Origin: Actinobacteria bacterium HGW-Actinobacteria-7
GTDB taxonomy: Bacteria > Actinomycetota > Coriobacteriia > Anaerosomatales > PHET01
Direction: 5' to 3'
Length of the DNA: 51,635 nucleotides
NCBI GenBank assembly: GCA_002841275.1
Contig: PHET01000017.1
Span: 1 to 51,635 of the forward strand
Shown: one piece after another, positions 46,971-51,635 of the stretch
How positions within the stretch are numbered: position 1 is the stretch's first letter
Layout of the letters: each line of letters starts with the position of its first letter
Made by a program: the position numbers and the translations under genes
The notes under the pieces: model-generated
The model's database searches: none
Seen by the model: the letters and a program-made list of their open reading frames with translations, nothing else
What the model was told of the DNA's origin: nothing

Positions 46971-47600
46971 GTGGATGACGACGCGACGCCGGTCGCCCTG
47001 CGACCGACCTTCTTCAGGCGCAACCGGACAACCATCTTGGTTGGAACGCTGGCTGCGGTTCTGGTTGGCGCGGTCGGTGGCTACTTCGCGTGGCGAGTCC
47101 GGACGAGCTCCCCCACAGACGCGCTCACCTCCATCGCCTCGTCTGCGATGAAGGGCGATGCAGACAGCGTGGCCGCCTCAATCGACACGACCTCGATCGT
47201 GGATTCGGCCGTCGACGATGTCTTCTCGGCATCCGACGAACGCCGTAGCGCGCTGCTTTCCGACTACCTCAGAACACACCCCGACACAACTCAGGAGCAG
47301 CTCAAGACCAAGGCGCGTAAACTGGTCGACGAGGAGATTCGCGAGCACGTCAAAGCCGGGACGCTGCCCAAGCGGATCCCGCTCGGAAGCAGCAAACTCA
47401 AAGCGTTGGTCGCCGAGGCGATGGCACGAAAGTCCGTGCAGTCCGTCAAGATCGACGGCAACATCGCGCATGTCGTGGTCACCGTGCCGTTCAGGGGCAA
47501 GACGCTGACCGTACGCGTGCGGATGCGACGCTCCGGAACCACGTGGAAGGTCGATCGCATCGAGAACATGGCCTCCGTGCTGAAGCAAGCCGGCTACTAG
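46971..47600 (+). CDS. Single-TM protein, DUF2939-like
   Basis: 209 residues from GTG 46971 (GGAGAGG upstream at a somewhat long distance). One N-terminal TM (TILVGTLAAVLVGAVGGYFA, about 20-39) and an outer domain with ALTSIASSAMKGDADSVAAS, IDTTSIVDSAVDDVF and a C-terminal beta part AHVVVTVPFRGKTLTVRVRM, the arrangement of DUF2939-type proteins, function unknown. Followed by a terminator region that belongs to the tRNA on the other strand. Confidence 0.65.
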   Translation: MDDDATPVALRPTFFRRNRTTILVGTLAAVLVGAVGGYFAWRVRTSSPTDALTSIASSAMKGDADSVAASIDTTSIVDSAVDDVFSASDERRSALLSDYLRTHPDTTQEQLKTKARKLVDEEIREHVKAGTLPKRIPLGSSKLKALVAEAMARKSVQSVKIDGNIAHVVVTVPFRGKTLTVRVRMRRSGTTWKVDRIENMASVLKQAGY

Positions 47601-47623
47601 CCGCCACGGCGAGCCGAAAAACA

Positions 47624-47656
47624 GCAGGCCCGAGACAGTGTACGTCTCGGGCCTGC
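47624..47656 (-). terminator. Rho-independent terminator for the tRNA gene
   Basis: GCAGGCCCGAGAC (47624-47636) pairs perfectly over 13 bp with GTCTCGGGCCTGC (47644-47656), loop of 7. On the minus strand the hairpin is followed by TGTTTTTCGG, a T-tract, so it ends transcription of the tRNA. On the plus strand no T-tract follows, but the stem may also mark the end of the gene that stops at 47600. Confidence 0.85.
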
Positions 47657-47665
47657 GCAAGTTCT

Positions 47666-47742
<77 letters not shown>

Positions 47743-47830
47743 CTATTCATTTCCCGCTCAAGGCGGACGCACAAGGTAACATACCCACTTCTCGAGATGC
47801 AAATCCTGTCCGCATCCGACCTTCAGTCAA

Positions 47831-50800
47831 CTAGCGGGCGGCCTGCGCCACCGCCGTCTCACCTAGCGGATATGCCACGACCACGGTGCGCTTGTTGCCC
47901 ATGAACCGAGGCAGGCATGTGTAGATGGTCAGGCGGTCGCGACCGCCTCGTGCGAGCCAGCTGGTGTCAGTCGGCTTGGCGGTGTGCTTCTCGGCAATCA
48001 GATAGCGGTGCGCGGTGCCCTTCCAGTGCACCACTACCTCATCCCCTACCTCGGCGCGATGTAGCAGCGAGAACACGTCGGAGCGTCGGTGGCCCGCCAG
48101 CACTGTGTTACCAGGCTCACCGGGCCGCGCGCTGCCGGCGTGCAGGTACGCTCCGTTAGCGAGCGACGACTTCTCACTGGTGCCTACGGGAGTCATGATC
48201 CCCAGGGCAGGGATCGTGACGCGGTTGCCGGAAGCGTGGCTGGCGTTCTTCTCTGCGAGTTGTGCGATCACCTGTGCTGAACGGGTGCTGTTCGTTAGGG
48301 TGATCTTGGCACTTGGGATGGTTACCAAGCCCGCGCGTCTGAGCTCGAAGCCGACCTCGGCTGCGTTGGCCAGTAGCACGATTGCGATTCCCGCAACCAG
48401 CAACGTCATTCCGGCGACTCCGTGACGGCGCGCCCGAGAACGACGGCGGCTGCGAGCCGTCACCGTGTCGGGGCGCACGCGCTGCCTGACGGCTGCACGA
48501 CGACCCATCTGGTACGAGCCACCCAGCAGAAGCGCGATAGCCGCAGATAGCCACAGCCAGTCGTTATCGCCCGTGCGCAGCATGGTACTGTCGCCTACGG
48601 CCGCGGTGCGAGGATCGTCGGAAGACTTGGGATCGGTCTCTGCTGAGTCGACGATTGCGCGGTTCGCAATGGTGGTGCCAGCGCGTACGCCGGAATCCAC
48701 GGTCGTCTTCAGGGTGAGCACCTCGACGCCGCCTACCGGCATGATGCCGATGTTCCAGACAAGCACTCGCGGGTCATCGTCGTTGGCGCCCTTGCCGGTG
48801 ATTGAGCCGGGGACATAGGAGATACCCTCGGGCAGTGCGTCAGTGACGACTACCTGGGTGGTCTGCACCAGACCGGTGTTGCGCACGGTGATACGCCACT
48901 CGATGACATCGCCGGACTTCAGGCGACCTCCGTTGACGTCCTTGGCAACCTTCTCGATGTCCCACGGATCGACAGGATGGGTGACCTCGTTTGAGCGGAC
49001 GTTCACGCCGCCGCTGTGCGCGAACGTGAATGAGTTGAACACGCCCGGTCGCGAAATGTCGTCGGGTAGAACAGTCACCCGGAAGGTAAGCCGACCCGAG
49101 CTGCCCGCAGCCAGCGTCGGCAGCGTGAGGGCAACGGTGCGCGAAGCCGAGGTGTAGCGTCCCGCATCGGCATCGACGCCATCGGTGAGCGTCACGGGTG
49201 AGCCACCCAGATCCAGAGCCATCGAGCCAGGTACATACCCGACCGTCTCGGGAACAACATCGGCGACCTGTACATCGGTCATCGCCACTTGCGTGGGATT
49301 CTCGAACGCCAGAGTGTAGGTGATGATGTCGCCCGGCATCAGGATGGTGCCCGCCGGCGGGTTGGCGCTCTTGCGCAGCACCGGCATCGGCTGGCCGGAG
49401 ACGCTCAGGCCCGAGTCAGTGTCCTCGGCCGCAGGGACCGGATACCCCGATGCGTCCTCGGCCCCCGTAACCCGAGCGGTGTTAGCGACCGCTCCGGCCG
49501 AGAGCGCCTTGAACGTGGCGGTCACTGTCGTGTCGTGGCCCGGCTGCAAACCGCCCGTGCCGGATGCAAGATCGCTCCAGCTCAGCGTGCCACCGGCCGT
49601 CGAGGTCACGACCGAACTCGGTGCCACAGTGGCGGACACGAACTCCAGCCCGGCCGGGAACTCATCGACCAGCGGTAGCTGCGTGATGGTGGTGTTTCCG
49701 GTATTGCTCACCACAATGGTGTAGCTCACGGTCTCGCCGATAACCACGCTCTTGACTCCGCCCACCAGCCGCTTGTCCACGCTGACGGCCGGAGCGGCGA
49801 AGTTCAGCGAGACGTTGTCAGAAGCCGCTTCGACCTCATCGGCATTCTCGTCAACGGTGGCCGGGGCGCCCGCCACATTGATCGTGGTGTAGTTGGCCGG
49901 CACGCCGATAACGGTGAAGACCATGTCGATGGTGACCGACTCGCCCGGCGCCAGCGGCCCAACATTCGCAAAGCGCAGCAGCCCTAGACTCGACGAGCTG
50001 GGAGTCACCGTTGCCGAGTCGAACCGGAGCATGGCGTCATCGAAGGTGTCCTCGACCGGAACAGCACTCACGGTCGTGTCGCCAGAGTTGCGAACAACGA
50101 TTCGGAAGGTGGCTTGATCGTCCATCCCCACGACAGGGCTTTGACCCGGAGCGAGTTCCTTTGTCACCGAGAGGGACGGCTGCGTCACACGCACGTACTG
50201 AGTATCTGTCGGCGAGGTAACCGGATGGCCGCCCTCGTCTACGACGTCACTCGCGCCCGCGCTATTGCCGACGAGCCCTGAATCGGGCCGCGATATCACG
50301 GTGAACTGCACGCCTATCTCGGCATTCTGACCCGGGGCCAGCGCGGGCAACGCGAACTCCAGCGCGCCTGGGCTACCGCTCGAGATCTCGCTCGCGGTGA
50401 CGAACCGTAGCGAAGCGGGGTCATACGTATCGGTGACCGTGCCCGCGGTCAGCGTCGTGTTTCCGGTGTTCTGCAGACGGATGGTGTAGCTGATGCTCTG
50501 ACCAACCTGTACGAACTGATCCTGCCCATCGGCCAGCACTTTGTTGACAACGAGTACCGGTGCCGAGCGGTCGATCACATAGACTGCCGAGTAGGTCTGC
50601 GAGCGATTGCCAAACAGGTCGTAGGCCCAGTAGGTAACTGTGTTGGCGCCCTCATCGGAAACCTCGAAGTCGCCCGAGTAGACGAACGGTCCGGCTCCGT
50701 TGAGCGTGTAGTAGATGACATCGAGATCAGTCGCCGTGCTGTCAAGCGATGCGGTCACTGTCGCGGTGTAGCTACCCGGCGTGGGCGCGATGGACACGAG

Positions 50801-51635
50801 CGGCGGAGTCATGTCGATCTCGACGGTATCCGAGCCGTCGGGACCAACATTGCCGAAGGTGTCGACACCGCGGTAGTGGATCGTGAATGTGCTATCCGTG
50901 CTGAAGACCGGTCGGTCCAGCGGATCGTAGACGACCCACGGGCCACTGGTGCCAACGCGATACTCAAGGTAGGCGACATCGGTAGCGGTGGTAGTCAGTG
51001 ACACGGTCACTGTCTGGCTCGCAACCCACGCTGGCGACGCAGAGGCCTGTGTGAGCGGTCCTGTGGCGTCGATCACCACGGTCTCCTGGCCAATCGGTCC
51101 CGTGTTGCCTGAACTGTCGGTTCCACGAAACTCTATGGTGTACGTCCCGTCGACACTGAACTGCGGCTTGTCAGCCGGGTCGTAGGTGGCCCACGGTCCA
51201 CTCGTACCAACGCGGTACTCGATGGTGCCCATGTCGGTCGCCGTCGTTGTCAGCGAGACCGTGACGGTCTGACTCGAGATCCATGCCGGTGACGGCGACG
51301 CGGTCACTATCGGCGGCGTGCGATCGAGGACGCTGATGGTGACGGTCGCGGTGTCGGTTGCCCCAAGCGAGTCGGTGATCTCGTAGGTGAAGGTATCCGT
51401 GCCGTAGAAGTCAGTCGGCGGCGTGTACGTCACAACGCCTGCCAGAAGGACCACGGTTCCACCTTCGGAGCTCGAGGGCGACACCGCGCTTACCGAAGCG
51501 GTCTGCGTCGGCTCGTTGGGGCCGGCCGAGTCGTTAGACAGGAGGAACGATACGGGGATGTCGAGTGCGGTGTCCTCAGGCGTCGACGTCGAGTCGTCGG
51601 AGGCAACCGGCGGGTCGTTGAGTGCGCTCACGGTG
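47831..51635 (-). CDS. Giant surface protein with DUF11 repeats, LPXTG-like signal and C-terminal sortase domain (partial)
   Basis: The last 1267 codons of a gene whose N-terminus is outside the window. In order: a cadherin-like module (NDPPVASDDSTSTPEDTALD), three Ig-like/OmpL47-type modules (two with PAWxxSQTVTVSLTTTATD), five DUF11 repeats (VSYTIVVSNTGNTTITQLPL and similar), a sorting-signal-like segment LRTGDN (48563-48580) with hydrophobic helix and RRAAVRQR, a basic linker, a second TM (TLLVAGIAIVLLANA), and a sortase domain: VLAGHRRSDVF (His), LTIYTCLPRF (Cys) and KRTVVVAYPL (Arg). An internal ATG 48409 with GGAG 8 nt upstream could also give a free 192-residue sortase. A fused substrate and enzyme is uncommon. 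Confidence 0.85.
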   Translation of the reverse strand, partial: TVSALNDPPVASDDSTSTPEDTALDIPVSFLLSNDSAGPNEPTQTASVSAVSPSSSEGGTVVLLAGVVTYTPPTDFYGTDTFTYEITDSLGATDTATVTISVLDRTPPIVTASPSPAWISSQTVTVSLTTTATDMGTIEYRVGTSGPWATYDPADKPQFSVDGTYTIEFRGTDSSGNTGPIGQETVVIDATGPLTQASASPAWVASQTVTVSLTTTATDVAYLEYRVGTSGPWVVYDPLDRPVFSTDSTFTIHYRGVDTFGNVGPDGSDTVEIDMTPPLVSIAPTPGSYTATVTASLDSTATDLDVIYYTLNGAGPFVYSGDFEVSDEGANTVTYWAYDLFGNRSQTYSAVYVIDRSAPVLVVNKVLADGQDQFVQVGQSISYTIRLQNTGNTTLTAGTVTDTYDPASLRFVTASEISSGSPGALEFALPALAPGQNAEIGVQFTVISRPDSGLVGNSAGASDVVDEGGHPVTSPTDTQYVRVTQPSLSVTKELAPGQSPVVGMDDQATFRIVVRNSGDTTVSAVPVEDTFDDAMLRFDSATVTPSSSSLGLLRFANVGPLAPGESVTIDMVFTVIGVPANYTTINVAGAPATVDENADEVEAASDNVSLNFAAPAVSVDKRLVGGVKSVVIGETVSYTIVVSNTGNTTITQLPLVDEFPAGLEFVSATVAPSSVVTSTAGGTLSWSDLASGTGGLQPGHDTTVTATFKALSAGAVANTARVTGAEDASGYPVPAAEDTDSGLSVSGQPMPVLRKSANPPAGTILMPGDIITYTLAFENPTQVAMTDVQVADVVPETVGYVPGSMALDLGGSPVTLTDGVDADAGRYTSASRTVALTLPTLAAGSSGRLTFRVTVLPDDISRPGVFNSFTFAHSGGVNVRSNEVTHPVDPWDIEKVAKDVNGGRLKSGDVIEWRITVRNTGLVQTTQVVVTDALPEGISYVPGSITGKGANDDDPRVLVWNIGIMPVGGVEVLTLKTTVDSGVRAGTTIANRAIVDSAETDPKSSDDPRTAAVGDSTMLRTGDNDWLWLSAAIALLLGGSYQMGRRAAVRQRVRPDTVTARSRRRSRARRHGVAGMTLLVAGIAIVLLANAAEVGFELRRAGLVTIPSAKITLTNSTRSAQVIAQLAEKNASHASGNRVTIPALGIMTPVGTSEKSSLANGAYLHAGSARPGEPGNTVLAGHRRSDVFSLLHRAEVGDEVVVHWKGTAHRYLIAEKHTAKPTDTSWLARGGRDRLTIYTCLPRFMGNKRTVVVAYPLGETAVAQAAR

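Follow-up and report, generated by a model that had tools for sequence, protein, structure and literature searches.

The minus strand at the end of the window, by which we mean the whole stretch of 51,635 nucleotides that was analysed, carries a single reading frame of 1267 codons without a stop (51634-47831), whose 5' end runs out at the contig boundary, also the end of the window. The Pfam models for DUF11 (PF01345; 171 bits, E 1.2e-50, five stretches), Big_9 (E 2.1e-17), and sortase (PF04203; 77.6 bits against a cut-off of 26.6, E 8.8e-22, residues 1139-1255) all exceed their cut-offs in the encoded protein (Table 1). The preliminary description, which had placed a surface adhesin and a membrane-anchored sortase with His, Cys, and Arg residues in one frame, is therefore borne out, and the fusion is also found in relatives.

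Table 1. Features of the fused gene and of its downstream neighbours in the window
Feature	Position	Strand	Remarks
Fused adhesin-sortase ORF	47831-51634	-	1267 codons + stop; 5' portion past contig end
Big_9/cadherin-like Ig domain, at contig end	51332-51619	-	Pfam
DUF11 stalk, five matches	48599-50518	-	48599-48949, 49055-49339, 49457-49753, 49841-50173, 50252-50518
Variant sorting motif MLRTGDND	48560-48583	-	Aligned to LLQTG and LLRTG signals in unfused relatives
Hydrophobic segment 1 (predicted sorting-signal TM, out to in)	48506-48559	-	Helix in AF2 model
Arg-rich loop, 29 residues, predicted cytoplasmic	48419-48505	-	Sequence
TM 2 (predicted sortase signal anchor, in to out)	48350-48418	-	Hydropathy scan and helix in AF2 model
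Internal ATG, probably not a start	48407-48409	-	GGAG 8 nt upstream; sequence
Sortase catalytic domain	47870-48220	-	AGHR 48086-48097, LTIYTC 47915-47932, NKRTVV 47879-47896
tRNA-Met, downstream of fused gene	47666-47742	-	
Terminator-like hairpin, past tRNA-Met	47624-47656	-	

With regard to the upstream rest of the gene, which the preliminary description had suggested looking for, a candidate is present on contig C38 of the same genome (G000; L058 4695-8024, right end). This contig ends within an ORF of 1110 codons, counted from ATG, which exhibits an N-terminal hydrophobic segment and Big_9 repeats. This ORF probably represents the missing 5' portion of the fused gene, so that a single gene would extend over both contigs. 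The end of C38 and that of the window (51332-51634) both lie in Big_9 repeats and have 48 identical bases in common, after which they diverge, so that at least one repeat is probably missing in between.

After the last DUF11 domain, the chain comprises the motif MLRTGDND, a hydrophobic stretch, 29 Arg-rich residues, a second hydrophobic stretch, and the sortase. MLRTG (in which the Pro is absent), the first hydrophobic stretch, and the Arg-rich loop reproduce the layout of an LPXTG-like sorting signal, which is internal rather than C-terminal, since the sortase comes after it. When the LPXTG anchor model PF00746 was run against the window genome, nine matches were obtained at E up to 10, and contig C23, which encodes the fused protein, was absent among them. 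The signal, previously described as degenerate, is real but is better termed variant, since MLRTG fits the consensus [LM]x[RQ]TG, which is seen again in relatives, fused and unfused alike. The T and G do not vary across the seven signals of alignment A3, from which two sequences with RTSG (L048 and L103) were left out, and LPVTG is found behind a homologous DUF11 in L100. A windowed hydropathy scan of the window protein picks out, besides the second stretch, part of DUF11 (surely a false hit) and leaves the first stretch unflagged; the same scan flags both stretches in three fused relatives (L046, L047, and L048), and the AF2 model of the window protein shows helices at both. By the positive-inside rule, two transmembrane segments flanking a basic loop would place the stalk and the sortase on the same outer face of the membrane.

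The catalytic His, Cys, and Arg of the sortase (residues 287, 345, and 354 of P0001) are invariant in the four fused copies described below, in agreement with the preliminary description. The general sortase model TIGR01076 exceeds its cut-off (52.3 against 39.35 bits). None of the NCBIfam sortase class models does so: the best is an SrtD model (56.2 against 140 bits), and the others are class D (52.9/165), E (47.9/160), C (47.6/160), GN (33.4/158.25), and F (19.7/166). Class A and B models are absent among the NCBIfam matches at E up to 0.01, a library that may not contain such models. The predicted structure of the domain exhibits the beta-barrel fold of solved sortases (3re9, Z 19.8, rmsd 2.3, 126 aligned), and class C pilus sortases account for many of the top fold matches, alongside classes A and E. 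With its intact catalytic residues and sortase fold, the domain is a predicted transpeptidase.

The last 372 residues of the window protein were used to search 99 relatives, and the loci obtained were then read. The same continuous frame is observed in G002:C49 (L046; 1318 codons, 50% identity), in G001:C24 (L047; 614 codons, 48% identity), and in the more diverged G002:C56 (L048; 536 codons, 36% identity), and Pfam finds both DUF11 and sortase domains in all three. The fusion is therefore present at four loci in three of the four sampled genomes of the window's family. Other single ORFs combining DUF11 and sortase, the search for which had been proposed in the preliminary description, thus exist here and in a more distant genome (G255, see below). 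Internal stops between adhesin and sortase were considered for L046 and L047 and ruled out, the stops being terminal. At the junction, dN/dS is 0.27 for L046-L047 (dN 0.26, dS 0.97), and 0.44 and 0.46 for the pairs with the window (0.71/1.63 and 0.66/1.45), values that are imprecise with dS near or above 1. Both at the junction and in the sortase, dN is lower than dS in all three of these pairs, and the junction values are those that a translated and constrained segment would be expected to show. A sequencing or assembly error that masks a stop codon or a frameshift, as might occur in a draft assembly of 38 contigs, had been named as a possible refutation; as far as four assembled loci allow, it is excluded by the same fused arrangement at three other loci from two other genomes, and could hold only in the extremely improbable case that all share one error.

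Within the family, three of the four fused loci are truncated by contig ends, and the fourth, that of G001, looks frame-shifted upstream. In the latter (L047 1539-4759), the fused gene seems broken upstream of the junction, with pieces of one adhesin in overlapping frames. A scan of named genomes with P0001 revealed no relative. The same scan with A1 gave 12 loci, of which 11 were examined by pattern search (L110 was left out) and two contain a sortase, L099 and L103. L099 is the contig of G001 (JAJUJM010000006.1, an Actinomycetota metagenome-assembled genome) and is identical across the fused part. By-eye reading of other sortases in long frames (G001:C7 and G028:C22 in the order, G090:C91 in the class) showed no DUF11-like part in front.

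Separate genes also exist in relatives, an arrangement that had been proposed as a refutation; this shows the fusion to be a derived state, not a false one. The DUF11 homologue of G004 (L049) ends in an LLQTG signal and overlaps a separate sortase gene by 29 nt, and that of G041 (L050) ends in LLRTG, with an overlap of 8 nt. Within the window's own family, G002:C5 (L053) exhibits an LLQTG signal and a separate sortase that overlaps by 4 nt if it starts at GTG, whereas its first ATG would leave no overlap. A fourth separate pair, with a 4-nt ATGA overlap, is found in L103, a named contig of Thermoleophilia UBA6103. The overlap lengths (29, 8, 4, and 4 nt) depend on the start codons chosen. As all four linked unfused pairs overlap, a coupled gene pair is the likely ancestor of the fusion. 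Overlapping genes cannot share a frame, so fusion would have required a frame change in addition to the loss of a stop codon. The pair can also be unlinked, since in G045 the substrate (L051 3528-4307) and the sortase (L052 2025-2633) lie on different contigs, away from the contig ends; this sortase is of the window's type, hereafter YTC. In the sortase tree, the window, L046, and L047 are grouped (95/93) inside a clade of nine YTC-type sortases (100/100). L048 lies apart from them, with L103 (83/72), but a single fused clade is not rejected (p-AU 0.302), so that one or two origins of the fusion in the family are both compatible with the tree.

A further fusion came to light among 396 sampled genomes of the phylum. 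Among the matches listed, we read ten, namely nine of the ten with open frames of at least 500 aa (G120 was left out) and G155, and only G255 proved to be fused. In G255:C206 (L089 2821-5847), DUF11 domains are followed in the same frame by VLAYTGFD, two hydrophobic stretches with RRRRR between them, and a TTC sortase, giving 1009 aa if started at the Met of codon 545. G255 belongs to another order of the same phylum, and its sortase lies outside the YTC clade in the tree. On the thin evidence of this one draft contig, it may represent an independent second fusion, in another sortase branch. In the order of G255, a match is present in 22 of 27 genomes; apart from that of G255:C206, the matches have open frames of 209 to 446 aa, and the six of these shorter ones that were read are all stand-alone sortases. 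G255 itself also has a stand-alone sortase, on C27.

For the YTC-type sortase, eight matches of at least 235.7 bits occur in 6 of the 69 genomes searched in the order, the next best match scoring 108.6 bits, and four of the eight are fused, all in the window's family. With at most eight candidates scored per genome, which is less thorough than the search of the order, 396 sampled genomes of the class gave the same six, and those of the phylum gave no further match above 113.3 bits. The signal profile matches seven places; these too are confined to the six genomes with the sortase, and none is in the other 63. These seven matches are the profile's own rows, so the co-occurrence of signal and sortase is partly by construction; what is informative is that no others were hit, and that in G045 substrate and sortase are unlinked and both present. 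The window genome, a draft assembly of 38 contigs, contains a single PF04203 sortase. LPXTG proteins that lack a sortase of their own, which the preliminary description had suggested looking for, are not found in this genome, no protein exceeding the PF00746 cut-off. Neither was a second signal of this type detected there (the next match, at E 0.18, is in a multi-TM protein), nor a further substrate of this type in the 69 genomes of the order. Enzyme and substrate thus look dedicated to each other.

We therefore consider the fusion to be, with somewhat better than even probability, a self-contained display unit, in which a dedicated sortase is joined to its only detectable substrate, cuts at [LM]x[RQ]TG, and links the stalk to the wall. 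The pairing is dedicated, the signal conserved, and the enzyme intact, all of which agree with this reading. We infer the following course of export, cleavage, and transfer. The exported product would span the membrane twice, with the DUF11/Ig stalk outside, the Arg-rich loop between the two TMs inside, and the sortase outside. The sortase would then cleave just ahead of the first TM, either in its own chain (in cis) or in a neighbouring copy (in trans), both of which are plausible. The stalk would be handed to a wall precursor, and the sortase would be left in the membrane with its two TMs. Such a fusion would set substrate and enzyme at 1:1, and one gene would suffice for surface display.

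A different function would result if the signal were a plain TM anchor and no self-processing took place, the sortase acting in trans on other proteins or polymerising stalks as pilus sortases do. The non-canonical motif, the class C pilus sortases among the best fold matches (beside A and E), and the VRTSG found at the motif site of G002:C56 could be taken in this way. We nevertheless regard this reading as unlikely, if worth keeping in mind, given the invariant T and G of the A3 signals and the lack of any other substrate, in the window's own genome or of this signal type in the 69 genomes of the order. In G002:C56 the VRTSG site is not matched by the signal profile, and the signal may be lost or altered. 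This copy also lies on a long branch and, together with the apparently frame-shifted adhesin of G001, would be compatible with a decaying remnant, in which the pair became joined through a frame change and either the sortase or the adhesin is losing its function. We judge decay to be improbable, as the catalytic residues are invariant across the four copies, dN remains below dS, and the frames of the window and of G002:C49 are open over 1267 and 1318 codons.

Structural models bear on whether the motif can reach the sortase groove; alignments of these models with solved sortases are known by their first and last aligned residues only. With the AF2 model of the window protein, 3 of 50 alignment rows begin at the sorting motif, from residue 119, and 47 at the sortase domain. 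With that of G001, nine of 50 begin at residues 101-104, adjoining ARTG (106-109), 35 at 209-218, in the sortase domain itself, and six at 53-55, inside DUF11, which is unhelpful to a groove reading. Among the nine rows of G001 that begin by the motif, 3tbe_C aligns from its chain residue 46 and 2w1j_A from 55, the numbering of 3tbe being, we assume, that of S. agalactiae SrtC1. The lids of class C sortases comprise Leu47/Asp49 in S. agalactiae SrtC1 and Val55/Asp58 in 2W1J (PMC3166054). The 5cuw row of G001 begins at chain residue 168, where the tripeptide observed in the active site of 5cuw starts (PMC5148588); the 5cuw row of the window begins at residue 240, away from the motif. Confidence at the motif is low in both models (block means of 59 for the window and 52 for G001), and a strand is present there in the window model and absent from that of G001. 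As some rows align from the motif, near lid or tripeptide positions, the models weakly suggest that the sortase groove can accommodate the sorting signal of the same chain. As a speculative extension, to which we give a low probability, the protein could be a self-processing zymogen, in which the signal lies as a lid in the sortase's own active-site groove and keeps it closed while the protein is exported. Cis-cleavage, as the first turnover, would then both anchor the stalk and release the enzyme, and the G255 branch would have arrived at this arrangement separately.

Sortases are treated as separate enzymes that locate their substrates in trans. A conserved natural substrate fusion would instead tie one enzyme to one stalk; it would make cis and trans processing directly distinguishable by experiment and provide a natural single-chain display module. 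In the open literature, no description of such a substrate-sortase fusion was found; domain-architecture databases, which lay outside the search, may list it without comment. Dedicated pairs of substrate and sorting enzyme, such as a Gram-negative LPXTG protein beside the sortase TIGR03784, or a single-target GlyGly-CTERM protein beside rhombosortase, are alike in having one enzyme per target and adjacent genes but comprise two genes (PMC3237569), whereas the window encodes one polypeptide. Class E sortases, which act on LAXTG, share a non-Pro sorting motif and a similar fold, and a linker peptide was observed in the active site of SrtE1; in contrast, their substrates are separate proteins (PMC5148588), and the window sortase falls below every NCBIfam class cut-off, including that of class E. 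The N-terminal lid of class C pilus sortases is likewise a segment before the catalytic domain that lies over the active site, and in a minority of model rows the alignment of the motif segment starts near this position. This lid is the enzyme's own DP(W/F/Y) segment (PMC3166054), whereas in the window it would be the sorting signal of a fused substrate. For S. pyogenes SrtA and M protein, a TM-TM contact was proposed from simulation, which similarly places a substrate TM beside a sortase TM; these are two proteins (PMC12746448), whereas the window would form a covalent hairpin.

The preliminary description had also proposed that the internal ATG at 48409 releases free sortase as a second product of the gene. 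The ATG and the GGAG 8 nt upstream are present as described, and a GGAG is also found 11 nt ahead of an internal GTG in L089. The second product itself finds little support and is very unlikely: translation from 48409 would begin at the second TM, without the positively charged loop residues expected to hold the N-terminus inside, and no promoter-like site was found in 47500-49000. No SD of at least 4 bases precedes the in-frame starts examined between the motif and the second TM in L046, L047, and L048, which counts for little, because the separate sortases of L049, L050, and L053 likewise lack one, so that its absence does not exclude internal starts.

The RTSG form of the motif is found both in the fused L048 (919-1062) and in the unfused L103 (8352-8495); the two sortases may lie side by side in the tree, and this form perhaps represents a sub-specificity.
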